A DNA stretch of 64,000 bases, from contig NZMJ01000046.1 in NCBI GenBank assembly GCA_002692855.1, forward strand, positions 129,018-193,017, written 5' to 3'. The notes below the pieces were generated by a model. That model saw only the letters and a program-made list of their open reading frames with translations, ran no database searches and was not told the DNA's origin. Within the stretch, counting starts at the first letter, position 1. Each line of letters starts with the position of its first letter. This document shows positions 2,494 to 22,363 of this stretch, piece by piece. This DNA is from Maricaulis sp. Its GTDB lineage: Bacteria > Pseudomonadota > Alphaproteobacteria > Caulobacterales > Maricaulaceae. The translations under genes and the position numbers were made by a program.

Positions 2494-3576
2494 ATGGCGG
2501 TAATTTCCAGGCTCAACAATCTCGTCGACCTCGCCAGGGAAAAGTCGAGCGACCGCCGCCGCGACCTGCTCCGCGAGGTCGCCGACCTGTTCTTTGAAGA
2601 ACCGCCCGTCGAGGGCAGCGGCGAGCAATCCGAGTTCGACACGGTGTTGTCGCGCCTTGCCGCCCAGACGGCCACCGAAGCACGCGCCGAGCTGTCGCGC
2701 CGCTTTGCCGATGCCCCCCTAGCACCGCGAAATCTCGTCATGCAGCTGGCCCGGGACGCCATCGAGGTCGCTGCACCCATCTTGCAAAAATCGAACGCCC
2801 TGAATGAAAACGACCTCGTTGCGCTCGCCGAGGAACTGGGTCAGGATCATCTGAACCAGATGTCGGTCCGTGAAACCGTTCCGGAACGTGTTTCGGCAGC
2901 CATCGTGCGCCGCGGCGACGACCGCACGGTCGCGCGCCTGATCAGCAACGAAGGCGCCCGTCTGTCGCGTCAGACCTATGAGGAAGTGACCGAGCGTGCG
3001 GAGACCAACGCCGAGCTGGCCGCCCCTCTGATCCAGCGCAAGGAAACACCGGTCGACCTGTTGAACGACCTCGTGGCCGTCGTCGAAACGCAATTGCGCG
3101 AGCGCATCCTGAAACGCTTCGAGAGCGTTGATCCGGAGGTGCTTGAAGAAGCCATGCAGGCCTCCCACAACCGCCTGGAAGCGCGGATGGCCGCCGATGC
3201 CGAGATCCAGGAAGCCACCCGCTACATCAACAGCATGAAAGTGCGCAAACAGTTCGACGGCGCATTGCTGGCCAAGCTGATGCGCGAGCGTCAGTTCGCA
3301 AAGCTGGCGGTGGGCCTCGCCGACATGTCCGGGCTCGACTACCGCTCGGCACGCATGGCGATCGAACACGAATCCGTCGATCCGTTGTGCCTGATCTGCA
3401 AGGCAGGCGGTCTCGACCGCTCCCTGTTCGTCACAATGGCAGTCCTGCGCAATGCCGGTCGCACCGCAGATGCGCTGCGCGATGCCAAGGAGTACGGCCA
3501 GATCTTCGACTCGATCACGGATCGCGACGCCCAGCGCGCCATGCGCTTCATGATGCTGCGCCGCGACGCCGCCTAG
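2494..3576 (+). CDS. DUF2336 domain-containing protein
   Basis: A 360-residue, almost entirely alpha-helical cytoplasmic protein without signal peptide or membrane segments. It has the repeated helical layout and the LMRERQFAKLAVGLADMS-type stretch that I recognise from alphaproteobacterial DUF2336 proteins, which have no settled biochemical function. Repeated helical units such as RVSAAIVRRGDD and NAELAAPLIQRKE suggest a HEAT-like solenoid (inference). GAGGGG about nine bases upstream supports the ATG. It diverges from the sodium channel, and its stop codon overlaps the stop of the mechanosensitive channel gene (ctag). A second, divergent DUF2336 gene lies at 22.4 kb. Confidence 0.88.
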   Translation: MAVISRLNNLVDLAREKSSDRRRDLLREVADLFFEEPPVEGSGEQSEFDTVLSRLAAQTATEARAELSRRFADAPLAPRNLVMQLARDAIEVAAPILQKSNALNENDLVALAEELGQDHLNQMSVRETVPERVSAAIVRRGDDRTVARLISNEGARLSRQTYEEVTERAETNAELAAPLIQRKETPVDLLNDLVAVVETQLRERILKRFESVDPEVLEEAMQASHNRLEARMAADAEIQEATRYINSMKVRKQFDGALLAKLMRERQFAKLAVGLADMSGLDYRSARMAIEHESVDPLCLICKAGGLDRSLFVTMAVLRNAGRTADALRDAKEYGQIFDSITDRDAQRAMRFMMLRRDAA

Positions 3577-14450: not shown

Positions 14451-16160
14451 TCAGGCGAGGTAGGCGATCAGCAGGACAATGCCGAGGAGCACGCTGGTCC
14501 AGATCGCCAGCAGGCCGCTCGGTATGTCACGGCTGAACGCGCCGGCCGGACTGAACACATTGAACAGGCGCTGTCCCACACGGCTGCGGAACCGCGCCCG
14601 CACATGATCAAGGGATCCCATCATCCGGTCGAACATCGACCAGCTCCAGCGCACGAAGCTGTCCCCGACCCGGCGATAGAGCCAGTCCGTGTCAAGATTC
14701 ACACTCGGAATCTCGGCTGGATAGAGCTTGAACCGGACGAGGAAGGTGAAAGCGAACAGCGCCGCAAGCAACAGCTGCATCTGCCCGACCACGTGATCGA
14801 ATGTGTACGGGCTGTACTCCACCGGGAAGGGCAGAAGGTTATAGAGATCGCCGTAATTGACCCCCAGATAGATGCACAGGAAGGAGGCCAGCCCCATCGC
14901 CAGCAGCATGTTGGGCGGCGCTTCCTTCACCCGCTTGCCGCTATCGTGCGCGAAGAAGGCGAAATACGGGATCTTGATGCCCGAATGCTCGAGCACGCCG
15001 GCCGAGGCGAAGACCAGGATCAGCCACGGAATGATCGAGCCATGCTCGAGGACTGCGGCAAGGGTCAACGCCTTGGCGACAAATCCCGAGAAGAGCGGGA
15101 AGGCCGAGATCGACATTGCCCCGATGATGCAGAACACCGATGTCAGTGGCATCGACTTGAACAAGCCGCCAAGCTCGGTCGCCTTCACCGTTCCGGTGCG
15201 CAGCAACACCGCGCCCATCGTCATGAACAGCAGCGCCTTGTAGATGATGTGCACGAAGGCGTGCGCGGCGGCGCCGTTGAGTGCGAGCTCGGACCCGACA
15301 CCGATCGCGGCGACCATGAAGCCCAGCTGGTTGTTCAGCGAATAGGCCAGCACCTTGCGCAAATCGTTCTCGATCACGGCATAGAAGACCGGGAAGGCGG
15401 TCATGATTGCCCCGACCCAGATCAGCGGTTCGAGACCGGCAAAGCCGCGCGCCAGCGCATAGATCGCCAGCTTGGTGGTGAAGGCCGACAGGATGACCGC
15501 ACCGGTCGCCGTCGCCTTCGGATAGGAATCCTGCAGCCAGTTGTGCATCAGCGGGAATGCGGCCTTGATGCCGAACGCCATCAGGATCATCAGCCCGCCC
15601 GGCGCATTCACATCGACCTGGTTGAAGGCCCAACTGCCTGAATGGTTGGCGTAAAGGATCGCCCCGGTCAGCAGCAGGACGCCTGACAGGACGTGAATCG
15701 CCAGATAGCGGTGCCCGGCGCGGAAGGCAGCCGGATTGCGGCCCGCCCAGACCAGGAAGACCGACGTGATCGCGGTCAATTCCCAGAAGAAGAACAGGGT
15801 CAGGAAGTCGCCGGCAAACACCGCGCCGATACCGGCGCCGGTATAGAGCAGTGCCGCCACGTCCGACATCCGGTCGCGTTCGTGCAGCGCGTAGATACCG
15901 TTCAGCAACGAGGCCAGGATGAAGACCAGGCCCCAGATACGGGACAGCGGGTCAAACCGGTAGGTTTCAAAGCTGAAGCCCGCCGCTTCGAACACGCCGA
16001 ACACGCCCGTATGCGGGGTCAGGAACCACAGCGCTCCCGCCATGAGCGGCGCGAGGATCATCAGGACCTTGCGCGCATAATGCCAGGGCAGCAGAGCGCA
16101 CAGGACACCGGCGGCCAGGATTGGCCAGGCGGGCGACATGCCGGCGAACATCTCACTCAT
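14451..16160 (-). CDS. Mrp antiporter NuoL/MnhD-type subunit, last gene of the operon
   Basis: A polytopic proton-conducting membrane subunit of 569 residues. It keeps the key charged residues of the antiporter superfamily: Glu in FFWELTAITSVF (helix 5), Lys in GIKAAFPLMHNWLQDSYPKAT (helix 7) and the region IENDLRKVLAYSLNNQLGFM. A C-terminal extension (DTDWLYRRVGDSFVRW plus a final helix) resembles the longer NuoL or MrpA-type subunits, so it may take the place of the missing MrpA N-terminal domain (inference). It overlaps the small upstream gene by eight bases and closes the nine-gene operon. Confidence 0.88.
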   Translation of the reverse strand: MSEMFAGMSPAWPILAAGVLCALLPWHYARKVLMILAPLMAGALWFLTPHTGVFGVFEAAGFSFETYRFDPLSRIWGLVFILASLLNGIYALHERDRMSDVAALLYTGAGIGAVFAGDFLTLFFFWELTAITSVFLVWAGRNPAAFRAGHRYLAIHVLSGVLLLTGAILYANHSGSWAFNQVDVNAPGGLMILMAFGIKAAFPLMHNWLQDSYPKATATGAVILSAFTTKLAIYALARGFAGLEPLIWVGAIMTAFPVFYAVIENDLRKVLAYSLNNQLGFMVAAIGVGSELALNGAAAHAFVHIIYKALLFMTMGAVLLRTGTVKATELGGLFKSMPLTSVFCIIGAMSISAFPLFSGFVAKALTLAAVLEHGSIIPWLILVFASAGVLEHSGIKIPYFAFFAHDSGKRVKEAPPNMLLAMGLASFLCIYLGVNYGDLYNLLPFPVEYSPYTFDHVVGQMQLLLAALFAFTFLVRFKLYPAEIPSVNLDTDWLYRRVGDSFVRWSWSMFDRMMGSLDHVRARFRSRVGQRLFNVFSPAGAFSRDIPSGLLAIWTSVLLGIVLLIAYLA

Positions 16161-16491
16161 CGCGCGCGCCCTTCTCGTAATAATCCTCGTCGCGGCCCAG
16201 CAGCGCTCGCAGCGGCCAGCCCATCAGGACGGCGAGGCAGAATCCGAAAAAGCCCATCGCGGCATAGAAGCCGAAGAATTGGTATTCGAACTCGGCGTGG
16301 AAATGGTGGAAATACTCGCCCACCAGCGTGGCGGCGAGCAGCACCAGGAAAATCCAGAACGGCAGCGTCCGGCCAAGTTTGGAATCGAGAAACAGGAAAG
16401 GACGCGCCAGCGGATGGATCTGGCGCTTCGGGTCTGGCGTCGCTGCACGTTTCGCGCGCGTCGTCTTCGGCTTTGGCGTTTCGTCGGTCAT
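16153..16491 (-). CDS. Small two-helix membrane protein inside the Mrp operon
   Basis: A 112-residue protein with a basic, Lys/Thr-rich cytoplasmic leader (about 35 residues), two hydrophobic helices (LPFWIFLVLLAATLVGEYF and FFGFYAAMGFFGFCLAVLMG) and a short charged tail. It overlaps the flanking antiporter subunit genes by 4 and 8 bases, which implies a fixed stoichiometric partner or assembly factor of the complex. I do not recognise it among the canonical MrpA-G subunits, and no function is established. Confidence 0.8.
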   Translation of the reverse strand: MTDETPKPKTTRAKRAATPDPKRQIHPLARPFLFLDSKLGRTLPFWIFLVLLAATLVGEYFHHFHAEFEYQFFGFYAAMGFFGFCLAVLMGWPLRALLGRDEDYYEKGARDE

Positions 16492-17948
16492 GGCAGATCC
16501 GCTCCCGTCTCGAACACGGGTGACAGGAATTCGGTCAGGGGACCGATCAGGAAGAACAGTACAAGCGTGCCTGCGGCCGTGATTACCGGCGGAAGAATCG
16601 CCAGCACGGGCGGCTTCTTCTTCAGCGGCGCATCGGGCTCATACCCGAAGAAGGCGCGCCCCGGGATCGGCATCAGATAGGCGATGTTCAGGATGGAGGA
16701 GGCAATCAACGCGCCGATCAGCGCCACATGTCCCGCTTCGAGCGACCCCTGCATCAGGAAAAATTTCGGCCAGGTTCCGCCGAAGGGCGGCAGGCCGATG
16801 ATCGAGAACGCACCGACCGCAAACGCGCCAAACGTCCATGGCATCAGCTTGCCAAGGCCGCGCATATCGGAAATCTCGGTCTTCTTGGTCGCGGTGTAGA
16901 TGGCACCGGCACACATGAAGAGCGTGATCTTGCCCCAGGCGTGCATCACGATCTGCAAGGCCGCGCCCATCAAGGCCAGCGGCGAGGCCAGCATCGCGCC
17001 CAGCGTCACATAGGACAGCTGCGACACTGTCGAGAAGGCCAGCCGGGCCTTGAGGTTGTCCTTGGTCAACGCGATGACCGACGCCAGGACGATGGAAATC
17101 GCGGCAATCCAGGCCAGCGGCTCGGATGTCGGCGCCGCTGCGATCACCGCCGGCCCGAAAATGTAGGTCGCGACCTTCAGCACAGCGAACACACCGGCCT
17201 TCACGACGGCCACGGCATGCAGAAGCGCACTGACCGGCGTCGGTGCGACCATCGCATTCGGGAGCCAGGGGTGAACCGGCATCAGCGCAGCCTTGCCGAT
17301 GCCGAATGTGAACATCACCAGCAGAATGCCCGAGATCAGCGGCGCGACATCGCCCAGGATGCCGCCGCGCGTGAACTCGTTCGTTCCGGCGAAATACTGC
17401 GTCGCAATGATTGCCGGCAACAGAAGGCCGATCGACGTGCCCAGCAGGATGCCCAGATAGATGGCCGCGCCCTTGCGGGCCTTGGCATCGCCCTTGTGCG
17501 CAACAAGCGGATAGGTCGACAGGGTCAGCGCCTCGTAGAAGAGGAACATCGTCACCAGGTTAGCCGACAGCGCGACACCCATGGCACTGGCAAGCGCAAT
17601 GGCGAAACAGACATAGAAGCGTGTCTGGTTCTTCTCCTCATTACCGCGCATATAGCCGATGGAATAGAGCGAGTTGACGATCCACAGACCGCTCGCAACG
17701 GCGGCGAACAGGGCTCCGAGCGGTTCCAGGCGGAAGCTTAGCGACAGCCCGTCAGTCACCGGCAGCAGGACGAGTTCCGCGCCCTCACCGGCCACCGAAA
17801 TCAGGTAGCCGACATTGACCGCCAGCAGGACGGCCGTGATCAGGGTCGCGCCCTCTCGGATATTCGGCCAGCGACCGAGCAGGCCGATCATCACGGCACC
17901 GATCGCCGGCAGCGCGATGGCAATCGCCAGAGCGAGTTCGGGGGTCAT
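16488..17948 (-). CDS. Mrp antiporter NuoL/MnhD-type subunit (second copy)
   Basis: A 486-residue polytopic antiporter subunit. Conserved features are FLFYEALTLSTYPLVAHKGD (helix 5 Glu), GIGKAALMPVHPWLPNAMVAPTPVSALLHAVAVVK (helix 7 and 8 region, split here by description) and LTKDNLKARLAFSTVSQLSYV (helix 12 Lys region). The HPWLPNAM...APTPVSALLHA signature is of the NuoL/MrpA kind rather than the MrpD kind, so it could supply the MrpA-like proton path. It overlaps both neighbours by four bases (ATGA). Confidence 0.88.
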   Translation of the reverse strand: MTPELALAIAIALPAIGAVMIGLLGRWPNIREGATLITAVLLAVNVGYLISVAGEGAELVLLPVTDGLSLSFRLEPLGALFAAVASGLWIVNSLYSIGYMRGNEEKNQTRFYVCFAIALASAMGVALSANLVTMFLFYEALTLSTYPLVAHKGDAKARKGAAIYLGILLGTSIGLLLPAIIATQYFAGTNEFTRGGILGDVAPLISGILLVMFTFGIGKAALMPVHPWLPNAMVAPTPVSALLHAVAVVKAGVFAVLKVATYIFGPAVIAAAPTSEPLAWIAAISIVLASVIALTKDNLKARLAFSTVSQLSYVTLGAMLASPLALMGAALQIVMHAWGKITLFMCAGAIYTATKKTEISDMRGLGKLMPWTFGAFAVGAFSIIGLPPFGGTWPKFFLMQGSLEAGHVALIGALIASSILNIAYLMPIPGRAFFGYEPDAPLKKKPPVLAILPPVITAAGTLVLFFLIGPLTEFLSPVFETGADLP

Positions 17949-19474
17949 CGCACACCTCCCGCAATCGCGGCATCGGCTGCCGCGCGGGCGAGCTCATAGA
18001 CCGGCGACAGGTCGAAGAAGAAGAACACGTTGGCGAAGGCCAGCACCCACATCGGTATGGCCATCAGCCAGGGCGCGCGGCTGGAGGCCACCTCGCCATG
18101 ATGGGCACGTGGCTGGCCGACCCAGATGGCTGCCAGCAGACGCGCGACATAAGCCAGCGCCAGCAGGGACGAGATGATCACCGCCGCAGCGGCCCACCAC
18201 CAGCCCTGCTCCAGGGCAGCACTGATCAGATACCATTTCGACCAGAAGCCGACCGTCATCGGGACACCGATCAGGCTGAGCGAGGCGACTGTGAAGGCGA
18301 CAGCGGTCGCGGGCATGGATCGCGCCATGCCGGACAAGTCGCTGATCTGGCGCACGCCGAAACGCAGAGCGAAAATGCCGAGCGCCATGAATAGCGCGCC
18401 CTTCATCATCGCATGGTTCAACAGGTGCAGCACACCCGCCGAGATGCCGGCCGCGGTCCCGATGCCCAGGCCCAGCATCATGTAGCCGACCTGCGCCACC
18501 GACGAGAAGGCCAGCAGCCGCCGGGCGTCATTCTGGAAGATGGCCTGGATCGAACCGACGATCATGCCGACCACGCCCAGCATCGCGAACACCCACAGGA
18601 AGGACACCTGGACGAAGGGGGCGTCGGACGGGAATATGTCGAAGACGAACCGGATCAGCGTGTAGAACGCCATCTTTGTGGCGGTCGACGCCAGGAAGAC
18701 CGTCACGAAATTGGGCGCAAACGCATAGGCGTTCGGCAGCCACAAATGCAGCGGGAACATTGCGGCCTTCAGGCCCAGCCCCACGATGATGAAGGCGAAC
18801 GCCGCCTGGACCACCCGGCTGTCCTGCAGCGCGGGCAGGCGGTCGGCGATATCGGCCATGTTCAGTGTTCCGGTCGCCATGTAGAGGAAGCCGACGCCGA
18901 TCACGAAGAAGGTCGCGCCGATCGTGCCGAGGATCAGGTAATTGTACGCCGCAGTCAGCGCCCGGCGGTCCCGCCCGGCACCCATACCGACCAGCGCATA
19001 GGTCGAGATCGAGGAAATCTCGAGGAAGACGAACAGGTTGAAGGCATCGCCCGTGCTCGTCGCGCCCATGAGGCCGGCAAAGCAGACGAGGAAGGCCGAG
19101 TAGAACAGCGACTGCTTGTTGGGTGCAATTTCGTCGGCGACGCTTGGCAAGGCATAGACCACGCCCAGCACGCCAAGGAAGGACACCAGCAGCAGCACTG
19201 CGGCATTCAGCGCGTCGACCCGGAATTCGATGCCGTGCGGCGGCTCCCAGCCGCCCATCGCATAGCTGACGACGCCGTTCTGGGCGACATCACCCGCCAC
19301 AGACAGGGACAGGATGGCGGCAGCCAGCGTACCGAGCAGCGCCACGATCCAGCCCAGCCGGCCCTGGGGCAGGATGGCGGCGACGGGCGCGAGTGTCAGC
19401 GGAATCGCCACGGCGAGCATGACGGCATGGTCCGCCAGAAGCGGCGGAAGGAATGAGTTCACGAAGTCGATCAC
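17945..19474 (-). CDS. mnhD: Na+/H+ antiporter subunit D (MnhD/MrpD)
   Basis: A 509-residue proton-conducting subunit of the Mrp complex in the inner membrane. It shows FVFLEISSISTYALVGMGAG (helix 5 Glu), GLKAAMFPLHLWLPNAYAFAP (helix 7 Lys, typical MrpD/MbhH sequence) and QNDARRLLAFSSVAQVGYM. A GTG start overlaps the mnhC stop as GTGA, so translation is coupled. It directly follows mnhC, the usual C-D order, which makes it the authentic MrpD of the three related genes. Confidence 0.92.
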   Translation of the reverse strand: MIDFVNSFLPPLLADHAVMLAVAIPLTLAPVAAILPQGRLGWIVALLGTLAAAILSLSVAGDVAQNGVVSYAMGGWEPPHGIEFRVDALNAAVLLLVSFLGVLGVVYALPSVADEIAPNKQSLFYSAFLVCFAGLMGATSTGDAFNLFVFLEISSISTYALVGMGAGRDRRALTAAYNYLILGTIGATFFVIGVGFLYMATGTLNMADIADRLPALQDSRVVQAAFAFIIVGLGLKAAMFPLHLWLPNAYAFAPNFVTVFLASTATKMAFYTLIRFVFDIFPSDAPFVQVSFLWVFAMLGVVGMIVGSIQAIFQNDARRLLAFSSVAQVGYMMLGLGIGTAAGISAGVLHLLNHAMMKGALFMALGIFALRFGVRQISDLSGMARSMPATAVAFTVASLSLIGVPMTVGFWSKWYLISAALEQGWWWAAAAVIISSLLALAYVARLLAAIWVGQPRAHHGEVASSRAPWLMAIPMWVLAFANVFFFFDLSPVYELARAAADAAIAGGVR

Positions 19475-20073
19475 CGGCCGGCCTCCCCGGTGTCCATGGC
19501 ATAGTCGGCGCGGTTGATGGCCTCGTCCTCGATCGTGCCGTAGCTTTCGCGGATCCGGACAACCAGCGCCAGGCCGACGGCAAGCGTTGCCACGCCGACC
19601 ACGATCGCGGTCAGGATCAGGACGTGCGGAAGCGGATTGGAATAGATCACCTCGCCGAGCGCATCGGCACCATCGAGGACGGCGTGGTCCTGCGTGGTCA
19701 TCACCGGCTGCGTCGCCGCATCAGCGGCCTGCTCCAGCACGCTTTCAATGCCGTGCGCGGCGTCTTCAGCGCCGTGGGCTGCTTCCTCGGCACCATGCCC
19801 GGCCTGGACTGCGCCATGCGCCACGTCCCCGGCGGCGTGCGACCCCGGCTCGCTGCCATGCGCACCGTCATCTTCAGGAAGGATAGGCGGTTGGCCGCCG
19901 AAAACCTTGCCCATCGTGATGTAGAGCAGGAAGACCGACGTCTGGAACAATGACAGGCCGACCAGCCGCTTGACCAGGTTTCCGGTCGCGATCACGGCAT
20001 AAAGGCCGGTCATCATCAGCACGATGACGACGATGAAATTGAAGCGTTCGGCGAGCAGTTCGATCATCACCAT
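19471..20073 (-). CDS. mnhC: Na+/H+ antiporter subunit C (MnhC/MrpC) with histidine-heptad loop
   Basis: NuoK-like small membrane subunit. Three helices are visible: about residues 13-30, 34-55 (VKRLVGLSLFQTSVFLLYI, the family signature) and 148-172. Family members are near 110-125 residues; this one has 200 because of a loop of about 70 residues between helices 2 and 3, rich in His, Ala, Gly and acidic residues. Six histidines in it (72, 79, 86, 93, 100, 107 by the ORF numbering) lie exactly seven residues apart. An internal ATG at 20067 would shorten the protein by two residues and overlap the mnhB stop by one base. Confidence 0.9.
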   Translation of the reverse strand: MVMIELLAERFNFIVVIVLMMTGLYAVIATGNLVKRLVGLSLFQTSVFLLYITMGKVFGGQPPILPEDDGAHGSEPGSHAAGDVAHGAVQAGHGAEEAAHGAEDAAHGIESVLEQAADAATQPVMTTQDHAVLDGADALGEVIYSNPLPHVLILTAIVVGVATLAVGLALVVRIRESYGTIEDEAINRADYAMDTGEAGR

Positions 20074-20510
20074 TCCTCTTCCGGAATGTCCGGTGCCCGG
20101 CCCGCAAAAGCATAAAAAATCACGACCATGACGGAGAACACCGTGGTCAGAACACCCAGCTCGACGAGCAGAATTCCCAGGTGCTGGCCGGCGTGGTGCG
20201 TCGATTCCGGGTCGAGAATATCGTAGTCGAGGAAGTTCGCGCCCAGCATCCAGGTCGCAAATCCGGTCCCGGCATACAAAAGGACGCCGACCGCAGCGCC
20301 TGTGCGCACGAACCAGATCGGCACCGCTTCGCGCGCCGCATCCATCCCAAAGATCAAGGCATAAAGCACCACGGCCGCAGCAATGATCACACCAGCCTGG
20401 AAGCCGCCGCCCGGGCTATAATCCCCGTGGAAGTGTACGTAGAAACCGAAAATCACGATGATCGGGATCAGCAGCTTTGAAACGACGCGCAGAACGAGAT
20501 GCGGGTTCAT
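20067..20510 (-). CDS. mnhB: Na+/H+ antiporter subunit B (MnhB/MrpB)
   Basis: A 147-residue membrane subunit of the Mrp complex with four hydrophobic helices. The family motif FYVHFHGDYSPGGGFQAGVI lies near residues 23-42, and HHAGQHLGILLVELGV is in the second half. It overlaps the upstream MbhD/E-like gene by four bases and mnhC by seven. Standard Mrp operons place it just after mrpA, and here it follows the MbhD/E fusion that corresponds to the MrpA C terminus. Confidence 0.93.
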   Translation of the reverse strand: MNPHLVLRVVSKLLIPIIVIFGFYVHFHGDYSPGGGFQAGVIIAAAVVLYALIFGMDAAREAVPIWFVRTGAAVGVLLYAGTGFATWMLGANFLDYDILDPESTHHAGQHLGILLVELGVLTTVFSVMVVIFYAFAGRAPDIPEEEW

Positions 20511-21073
20511 TCCTCGCCCTCCTTCTTCGGCTTGCGGCGGCCAAAACCAAGCAGCAGCATGACCCCCAGACCGGCTGCGAAGATCACGACGGTCTCACCC
20601 AGCGTGTCGAAGCCCCGATAGCTTGCCAGGACAGCCGTCACGACGTTCGGCACGGCGATTTCCTGTGGCGTTCGGATCAGGTAGTCGAAGCCGACATAGG
20701 CATTGGCGGGCGCACTCGCGTCGCCATAGCTCGGCATGTCCCCGATCGCGAAAAACAACGCAGCGCCAGTGGCCGCCACCACGATCAGCGCCGCCCAGTG
20801 CCGGCCGGCTTTCACCGGCTCGGCCTCGCGCGCCGTCAGCAGCATCGCAGCCAGCATCAGGACGGTGGAAATACCGGCGCCGACGGCCGCCTCGGTAAAC
20901 GCCACATCGACTGCGTCGAGCGACACGAACCAGGCCGCGGACACGAGGCTGTACACGCCCATCAGCATGACGGCAGCAAACAGATTGCGCAGGCGGACGA
21001 TGGCAAATCCCACCGCCAGCAGCATCGCCATCAGCGCGTAATCAAGCAGTTGGGTCCAGTCGAAACCGTCCAT
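20507..21073 (-). CDS. MbhD/MbhE-like fusion (MrpA C-terminal domains, DUF4040)
   Basis: A 188-residue membrane protein that corresponds to the C-terminal part of MrpA encoded alone. The first half has the MbhD/DUF4040 pattern VDVAFTEAAVGAGISTVLML (near 55-74), the second the MbhE pattern NVVTAVLASYRGFDTLGET (near 141-159). About five helices are visible. In canonical Mrp these domains are fused behind a NuoL-like domain; in archaeal Mbh they are two separate genes. Here they are fused to each other but not to NuoL. It overlaps mnhG by one base and mnhB by four. Confidence 0.88.
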   Translation of the reverse strand: MDGFDWTQLLDYALMAMLLAVGFAIVRLRNLFAAVMLMGVYSLVSAAWFVSLDAVDVAFTEAAVGAGISTVLMLAAMLLTAREAEPVKAGRHWAALIVVAATGAALFFAIGDMPSYGDASAPANAYVGFDYLIRTPQEIAVPNVVTAVLASYRGFDTLGETVVIFAAGLGVMLLLGFGRRKPKKEGEE

Positions 21074-21435
21074 CAGACCTCTCCCTCACGCTCGCGCGGG
21101 TGCTTGGGATGATGGCGCGACAGGAGCGGCTTCTCGCCAGCGCGGTGCGCCGCGTTCGCCACGGCATGCGTTGCAGTGGGGCTGGTCAGGAACAGGAGGA
21201 AACCGACAAGCAGGAGCTTGGCCGCCAGCAGCGTGAAACCCGCCTGCAGGATCAGGGAAAACACGATAAGTTCGGCGCCCAGCGTGTCGGTCACGCCCGC
21301 GGCGTGCATGCGCGTGAAAAAGTCGGGCAGGCGCAGGACGCCCAGCGCCCCGGCCAGAACAAAGACAAGACCGGTCGCCATCAGGGCGATGCTGGCAATG
21401 TCGCGCACGAGGATGAGGCCGTCGGTCAGGGTCAT
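21073..21435 (-). CDS. mnhG: Na+/H+ antiporter subunit G (MnhG/MrpG)
   Basis: A 120-residue membrane subunit with three hydrophobic helices and the family stretch LGVLRLPDFFTRMHAAGVTDTLG near residues 32-54. The C-terminal 25 residues are basic and His-rich (SRHHPKHPRERE) and probably cytoplasmic. The gene overlaps mnhF by four bases and the MbhD/E-like gene by one, so it belongs to the same transcript. Confidence 0.92.
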   Translation of the reverse strand: MTLTDGLILVRDIASIALMATGLVFVLAGALGVLRLPDFFTRMHAAGVTDTLGAELIVFSLILQAGFTLLAAKLLLVGFLLFLTSPTATHAVANAAHRAGEKPLLSRHHPKHPREREGEV

Positions 21436-21749
21436 TCGTCGTCTCCCCCGATGGCGCGGCGCAGGGACATTTGCGCCAGGGCGATTTCCAGCGACCGGTA
21501 GCGGAAGAATTTGAGGATCGCGATCGTCGCGATGAAGTTGATCAGCGCATAAAGCAGCGCGATATCGACGCCATCGCTTCGCCCGACCATCAGGCTGAAA
21601 ATCAGCAGCAGGAGCACGGTCTTCGTGCCGAAGCTGTTCGCCGCGAGCACGCGGTCATAGAGTGTCGGCCCGACGAAGAGGCGCGCCAGCATTAACGCCA
21701 TCGCGCCGGCCATGCAAAGAGCGGCCGCCAGATTGATCCAGACCATCAT
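21432..21749 (-). CDS. mnhF: Na+/H+ antiporter subunit F (MnhF/MrpF)
   Basis: A 105-residue subunit with three helices. The motif RLFVGPTLYDRVLAANSFGT (near residues 23-42) and the following IALLYALINFIATIAILKF are typical of MrpF. The ORF begins with two Met codons; the first overlaps the mnhE stop by four bases. The C-terminal charged tail contains SLRRAIGGDDE. Confidence 0.93.
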   Translation of the reverse strand: MMVWINLAAALCMAGAMALMLARLFVGPTLYDRVLAANSFGTKTVLLLLIFSLMVGRSDGVDIALLYALINFIATIAILKFFRYRSLEIALAQMSLRRAIGGDDE

Positions 21750-22234
21750 GATTTCGCTCTCCGCCCGTCAGTGGCCCGGTCGGCGCGTGCATTCATTTCG
21801 GCGAATCCGTCCGCGCCGGTGAAGTCGGGGGTCAGGGCATGAACGAGGAAAGCGTCTTCCTCGACCTCCACCGTCACCGTGCCCGGTGTCAGCGTGATCG
21901 AATTGGCGAACACACAGCGGCTGAGATCGGATTCGGCATCGACGGGCACCCGGACCAGGCGCGGCGTGATGTCGATGGAGGGATTCAGCGCTGCCTTCAG
22001 CACGGCGACATTGGACTTGGCGATCTCTCCGCCGAGCCAGCCATAGAAGGGAATCAGCATCGGCAGACGGAAGAAGGGAACGGTCTCGCGGTCGATGATC
22101 CGCATCCGGATCGACAAGAGGAGCGTCACCACCACGCTCGCGCCGCCCAGGGCGAGCAGCAGGGTCTTGTCATAGCCCGATAACACCCACCAGATGACGG
22201 CGAGAATGACGGCCAGTCCGGCGCCGTAAATCAT
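21746..22234 (-). CDS. mnhE: Na+/H+ antiporter subunit E (MnhE/MrpE), first gene of the operon
   Basis: A 162-residue membrane subunit with an N-terminal hydrophobic pair and a cytoplasmic domain ending in the family features SITLTPGTVTVEVEEDAFLVHAL. GGGGAG seven bases before the ATG at 22234 supports this start over the 22327 ORF start. This is the first of nine overlapping genes; the promoter must lie in the 130 bases between it and the DUF2336 gene. Confidence 0.92.
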   Translation of the reverse strand: MIYGAGLAVILAVIWWVLSGYDKTLLLALGGASVVVTLLLSIRMRIIDRETVPFFRLPMLIPFYGWLGGEIAKSNVAVLKAALNPSIDITPRLVRVPVDAESDLSRCVFANSITLTPGTVTVEVEEDAFLVHALTPDFTGADGFAEMNARADRATDGRRAKS

Positions 22235-22363
22235 GCGGTCTCCCCTCAACGATCCCGTCCGGAAACCGGAACGATTGAGGCGGTATTTAACGGTGGGGGC
22301 CGCGCTTGACCAGCATTGGAGCAACAAAACCCGTGGACAGCTGCAGTTCGTCAGACCCGAGCG

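Follow-up and report, generated by a model that had tools for sequence, protein, structure and literature searches.

A repeat-grown, acidic, histidine-rich loop in MnhC of a predicted Maricaulis Mrp antiporter, a candidate proton antenna

The MnhC subunit of a predicted Na+/H+ antiporter, encoded in the 64,000 nucleotides of Maricaulis DNA analysed here (the window), carries an acidic, histidine-rich loop between transmembrane helices 2 and 3 (TM2 and TM3). Among relatives of the same order, this loop gains and loses short repeat units. Predicted to be mostly disordered and placed by homology at the ion mouth, it would most likely be a carboxylate-histidine 'proton antenna', a reading to which we give a probability of roughly 0.42. 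The main rival, a tolerated filler, carries almost equal weight; lower probabilities go to metal binding and to a pH sensor in coiled-coil form.

The 200-residue open reading frame at 19471..20073 (minus strand) was assigned by sequence matches as mnhC (mrpC, NuoK-like), a subunit of the predicted antiporter. It matched the Pfam family Oxidored_q2 (PF00420) with 73.5 bits and E = 1.2e-20 (cut-off 26.1) and reached the MrpC-level score of NCBIfam NF005624 (124.9 bits, cut-off 95). Its best solved relatives, both by sequence and by fold, were MbsG, MbhG and MrpC. In a PDB fold search with the MnhC model, the top four hits were MrpC, MbsG, MbhG and MrpC (probability 1.00, TMt 0.62–0.77, none at E <= 0.001). 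The NuoK three-helix fold is shared with MrpC/MnhC of Mrp (CPA3) antiporters (7qru_C, 6z16_C, 7d3u_C), MbsG (6u8y_G) and MbhG (6cfw_G), as are the start of TM3 (NPLPx-LxLTAIV) and an operon with B, D, E, F and G. However, the solved MrpC-type chains (sequence-matched) have 109–117 residues and no His-rich TM2-TM3 insertion, whereas the window loop has 81 residues. NuoK/ND4L of complex I shares Oxidored_q2 and the fold, but it matches weakly in sequence (E about 0.3), has about 100 residues and lacks the loop.

The genes are tightly packed on the minus strand in the order E-F-G-(MbhD/MbhE)-B-C-D-D, and mnhC is thus encoded together with MnhB, D, E, F and G. They are mnhE (21746..22327, PF01899), mnhF (21432..21749, PF04066), mnhG (21073..21435, PF03334), the gene of an MbhD/MbhE-like subunit, equivalent to the C-terminal domain of MrpA (20507..21073, PF13244 and PF20501), mnhB (20067..20510, PF04039), mnhC, mnhD for the first antiporter-like subunit (17945..19474, PF00361 at 3.1e-66) and a second MnhD-like antiporter subunit (16488..17948, PF00361 at 2.9e-54; NF006236 499 bits, below the cut-off of 663). 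The run extends past the second D gene (14451-16491, minus) with a small open reading frame of 112 residues, with hydrophobic stretches and without NCBIfam match (16153-16491, minus), and a third MnhD-like one of 569 residues (14451-16160, minus; NF009310 674.9 bits, cut-off 564), making three antiporter-like subunits together with a split MrpA. The window assembly has 4.07 Mb, with 5.89% contamination, and same-genus genomes have 2.2–2.8 Mb; part of the assembly may be foreign.

The extra loop occupies residues 65–145 of MnhC (19639..19881, minus) and contains 7 His and 16 Asp+Glu, with no Lys or Arg. The 'about 70 extra residues' noticed in the first-pass annotation were borne out, as the loop from PI to NPLPHV has 81 residues versus 9–12 in relatives outside the order. 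Also confirmed, from the coordinates of the reading frame, was the spacing of exactly seven between the histidines at 72, 79, 86, 93, 100 and 107 (minus-strand codons 19858-19860, 19837-39, 19816-18, 19795-97, 19774-76 and 19753-55). They belong to six heptads, DGAHGSE, PGSHAAG, DVAHGAV, QAGHGAE, EAAHGAE and DAAHGIE, at residues 69–110 (19744..19869, minus). Two further histidines are at 130, in the loop and out of register, and at 150, within the conserved NPLPHV. Chance spacing was ruled out by loop shuffles, in which runs of six His, counted for every spacing between 2 and 14, appeared in 4 of 200,000, and by a contig control, in which MnhC alone among 398 open reading frames had a heptad His run above 3. 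MnhC also held the richest A/G/D/E/H 40-mer of this control (34/40; the next had 28). The control comprised 453 kb of the same contig, about 11% of the genome, with a mechanical list of reading frames, antisense ones included. At the DNA level, TRF run on the window found no 21-bp tandem repeat at score 30, and a recent tandem repeat was discarded as undetectable there. The repeat escapes detection because the heptad units have diverged (pS 0.71, pN 0.32).

Concerning its location, the window loop links TM2 to TM3 and adjoins the N-terminus of TM3, which spans residues 146–177 (19543..19638, minus) with the invariant start NPLPH-VLxLT-IVV. In MrpC, this helix forms part of the lining of the Na+ exit on the periplasmic side (PMC7419157, PMC9568556). 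In an alignment to solved MrpC chains, MnhC T155 corresponds to T75 of Anoxybacillus flavithermus MrpC, which faces MrpA E796 at that exit (PMC7419157), and H150 to Q70 of Bacillus pseudofirmus MrpC, whose mutation Q70A impairs assembly of the complex, with a phenotype matching that of MrpA-P683G (PMC5703873). Since the loop ends at S145, it would therefore be attached at most about 10 residues from the proposed Na+ exit, on the periplasmic side. So, the earlier suggestion that the loop is near the ion path agrees with its attachment to the N-terminus of TM3 and with the T155–T75 match. The homologues point to a loop close to the ion exit and, together with the charge, to a probably periplasmic one: the TM2-TM3 loop combines 16 acidic residues with a lack of Lys and Arg, whereas the TM1-TM2 loop bears K35 and R36. 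As separate observations on the same subunit, H150 (19624-19626, minus), the His of NPLPHV, is invariant in an alignment of 79 sequences, where solved MrpC and MBH/MBS have Gln; in the places of T45 and F48 (19930-19941, minus), A. flavithermus MrpC has H37 and H40, two TM2 histidines described as conserved in Mrp proteins; and F43 and Q44 are invariant in the window clade (same 79-sequence alignment).

The loop was compared in 139 non-redundant relatives from the window's order, sampled as three families (f1, f2 and f5) that include Hyphobacterium, Maricaulis, Woodsholea and Parvularcula, and in 29 relatives from other alphaproteobacterial families. Within the order its length was 15–165 residues (median 48), and 100 of the 122 loops with at least 30 residues had at least three His; outside the order it was 9–12 residues, with a single His in one of the 29. 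The repeat units differ among the loops of the order, being 4–7 residues long. The first-pass annotation had proposed an alignment of relatives as the check on a conserved His period, to be refuted by random loop lengths and the lack of a kept period in close relatives. For the exact array this refutation applies: the lengths of same-genus loops spanned 15 to 81 residues and their His counts 0 to 7 (for example 71 residues with 6 His, 55 with 2, 48 with 1, 47 with 0 and 15 with 0), and the exact array was not kept. Hyphobacterium indicum (L037/L024), of the same genus as the window, has one loop His. Because several genus mates have 0–2 loop His, the genus neither conserves the heptad array nor can depend on it. 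Other periods occur elsewhere, such as HADTG-like fives (L008) and HGDG-like fours (L049). The exact heptad array is therefore a lineage-specific state; what evolution seems to retain is no more than a loop of this type.

When the relatives were placed on a tree built from MnhB and the MnhC core, a long loop proved general in the order, with scattered losses, the loop being lost or without His in one genus of f1 (f1.g5) and in L053, L042 and L027. Runs of at least four heptad His lay on approximately four branches (the window, L007, L013/L022 and L112/L113), counts that are approximate because the tree, made with FastTree, had many poorly supported forks and its outgroup was not monophyletic. 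A scan of L041 and L042 (out-of-frame reading frames included) gave no clear case of another His-rich subunit offsetting a short MnhC loop. A phylum-wide pattern scan for AHGAE-type heptads had no match, but its pattern was so strict that even the window escaped it, and the result carries no weight. Outside the order, an Acidobacteriota metagenome-assembled genome (L038, MnhC at 2971-3435) showed on a long branch a 34-residue loop with three spaced His, which may reflect a separate origin, a transfer or a misbinned contig.

Whole repeats were directly seen to come and go, as unit-sized length differences between close relatives. L113 and L122, with identical MnhB and MnhC cores, have loops of 61 versus 54 residues, i.e., one heptad apart, and the loop lengths of L112/L137 and of L138/L139 likewise differ by seven. 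Pooled over 37 close pairs, the loop had a pN/pS of 0.39, against 0.06 for the core; in the closest pairs the loop value was near 0.1–0.2, and most of these pairs had a loop pN of 0.02–0.07 with pS about 0.3. These substitution rates indicate purifying selection on the loop. The DAAHGAA units of one genus (f2.g25) gave pS 0.88–1.0, so silent changes were saturated, with pN 0–0.13, the six heptads of the window being looser. In that genus (L112, L113, L122 and L137), identical DAAHGAA peptides are encoded by fully diverged codons, and the copy number of the repeat differs by one between genes with identical cores. These heptads are a fine natural example of a repeat under selection at the peptide level. 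In ungapped pairs (n = 14), His sites were kept in 62 of 68 cases and other sites in 448 of 531, so the excess conservation of His is small, with a 95% interval of the difference (0.002–0.142) that barely excludes zero. Over the 37 pairs, under an alignment scoring that favours His, its retention was 0.80 of aligned residues, and it was among the best-kept ones.

The loops of the order are made of 21.6% Ala, 14.8% Gly, 8.8% Asp, 8.3% His and 7.9% Glu, with 0.5% Arg and practically no Cys. The His content compares with 4.2% expected from the codon-position base frequencies of the loops and with 2.5% in the reading frames of the contig; relative to the same expectation, Gln was at 0.8x, though sharing the CAN codon box with His, and Arg at 0.12x. 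The net charge was negative in every tested loop of at least 30 residues (median -7). Composition, rather than sequence, appears to be conserved.

These results bear on the main rival, namely that the loop is a near-neutral, low-complexity insertion that is tolerated as filler, expands and contracts by tandem duplication and carries its histidines along in the units. This is a serious possibility, only a little less probable than the antenna. It is favoured by the unit-sized indels between near-identical genes, by several lineages that have lost the loop or its His, by a pN/pS sixfold higher in the loop than in the core and by the mostly disordered state predicted by AlphaFold2. On the other hand, it does not account well for a loop pN/pS well below 1, and near 0.1 in the closest pairs, for a DAAHGAA peptide unchanged despite saturated silent change, for His at twice the base-composition expectation and among the best-kept residues, or for the net negative charge of all tested loops.

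With respect to spacing, His pairs at i+2 and i+3 were seen 2 and 4 times in the 122 loops, with about 57 expected, an avoidance that persisted under dipeptide-preserving shuffles. Together with an excess of His at lag 4, it was stable in every version of the test; His at lag 1 was below expectation. The avoidance at lags 2 and 3 may come from growth by units of at least four residues with one His each, or from selection against chelating spacing. A general heptad rule was considered and rejected: lag 7 reached z 4.3 in one representative set, but only 1.3–2.0 with dipeptide-preserving shuffles and other representatives, and the signal was gone without the window and two genera.

Chelating His-rich loops usually have His at i+2 and i+3. 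Those of zinc transporters and zinc-binding proteins (ZIP, CDF, ZnuA) are low-complexity, His-rich and variable in length, with abundant HxH runs; the MnhC loop is similar in the first three respects, but HxH and HxxH are almost absent from it, and clusters of HxH, HxxH or HH do not mark the loops of the order. It is thus unlikely that the histidines serve in the periplasm as ligands of Zn2+, Cu2+ or Ni2+, either to control the antiporter or as a metal buffer. Metal binding had been raised in the first-pass annotation, and a His-rich, acidic and probably periplasmic loop with i+4 pairs in excess speaks for it; against it stand the scarcity of HxH and HxxH, a number and spacing of His that are not conserved and the lack of any metal gene among the operon reading frames.

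An AlphaFold2 model of the window MnhC, built with 79 sequences, gave confident transmembrane helices at residues 2–29, 33–57 and 148–178, in a three-helix fold like that of solved MrpC. The loop was mostly disordered, with the heptad region as coil at pLDDT about 44–56. Its best-predicted piece was a short helix after the heptads, at residues 108–121 (19711..19752, minus; pLDDT about 72). In L113, which has the most regular heptads, a helix over residues 98–115 was predicted with low confidence.

Long acidic disordered arms often serve as tethers or docking arms, and the short helix after the heptads would suit an arm that engages a periplasmic partner or links the two protomers of an Mrp dimer; with no conserved motif except the fixed ends, a length from 15 to 165 residues and no partner seen, we regard this as improbable, somewhat more so than metal binding. 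Least probable of all is the earlier reading of the heptads as a helix or coiled coil with a pH-sensing stripe of His, for which the exact heptads in about four lineages and the low-confidence helix in the last repeats of L113 could be adduced, and which is contradicted by the coil prediction for the window array, by units of Ala, Gly, His and acidic residues without hydrophobic a/d positions and with Gly after most His, by a lag-7 excess that stems from a few lineages and vanishes without them, and by same-genus relatives devoid of the array; so, the model lends no support to a coiled coil, a transient helix being possible.

It seems reasonable to interpret the loop as follows. MnhC of the order carries an insertion in the TM2-TM3 loop, probably on the periplasmic side, which gains and loses whole short units of 4–7 residues; growth and shrinkage by such units make length and period differ between close relatives, and the exact His heptad of the window is the present repeat phase of its lineage. 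The loop is held to a make-up, namely an Ala/Gly spacer, Asp/Glu and one His per approximately 4–7 residues, net negative, with almost no Arg and no Cys. Most likely it would act as an unstructured brush of titratable groups where Mrp opens to the periplasm, holding protons and/or cations near the H+ entry and the Na+ exit.

The antenna is rated likeliest because surface clusters of carboxylates and His can retain protons and pass them on (PMC8203321) and because Mrp in alkaline seawater must presumably capture scarce protons. In its clustered acidic and His groups, and in a place that by homology would be near a proton path, the loop resembles the antennas of bacteriorhodopsin, cytochrome c oxidase and PsbO (PMC8203321), but those are protein-surface clusters whose role was measured or proposed, whereas the MnhC loop is disordered and fast-changing, and perhaps an antenna by analogy. 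Several points speak against this function. The loop or its His was lost in some lineages, so its function would be dispensable or replaceable, and other alphaproteobacterial families manage without the loop. The avoidance of Arg/Lys and Cys follows in part from periplasmic exposure. In the A. flavithermus structure, the small subunits present a positive charge towards the periplasm, and protons are taken to enter chiefly through MrpA instead of MrpC (PMC7419157). No description of a His-rich MrpC loop was found in the literature searched.

As a broader proposition, which we hold as doubtful, a largely marine alphaproteobacterial order would have a disordered acidic-His brush at the ion mouth of its Mrp complex, on the periplasmic side, selected for bulk composition and tuned by single-unit gain and loss, as a fast-evolving proton/cation antenna added to a conserved antiporter. 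The MnhC loop is a clear case of a membrane-protein loop in which composition, not sequence, is apparently conserved. Mrp and respiratory complex I have their antiporter core in common, and the routes by which protons and Na+ enter and leave it are debated. The natural MnhC series, with nearly the same cores and with loops of 15 to 165 residues, with or without His and sometimes one unit apart, provides a ready-made test set for whether a titratable surface brush alters proton capture or Na+ release.
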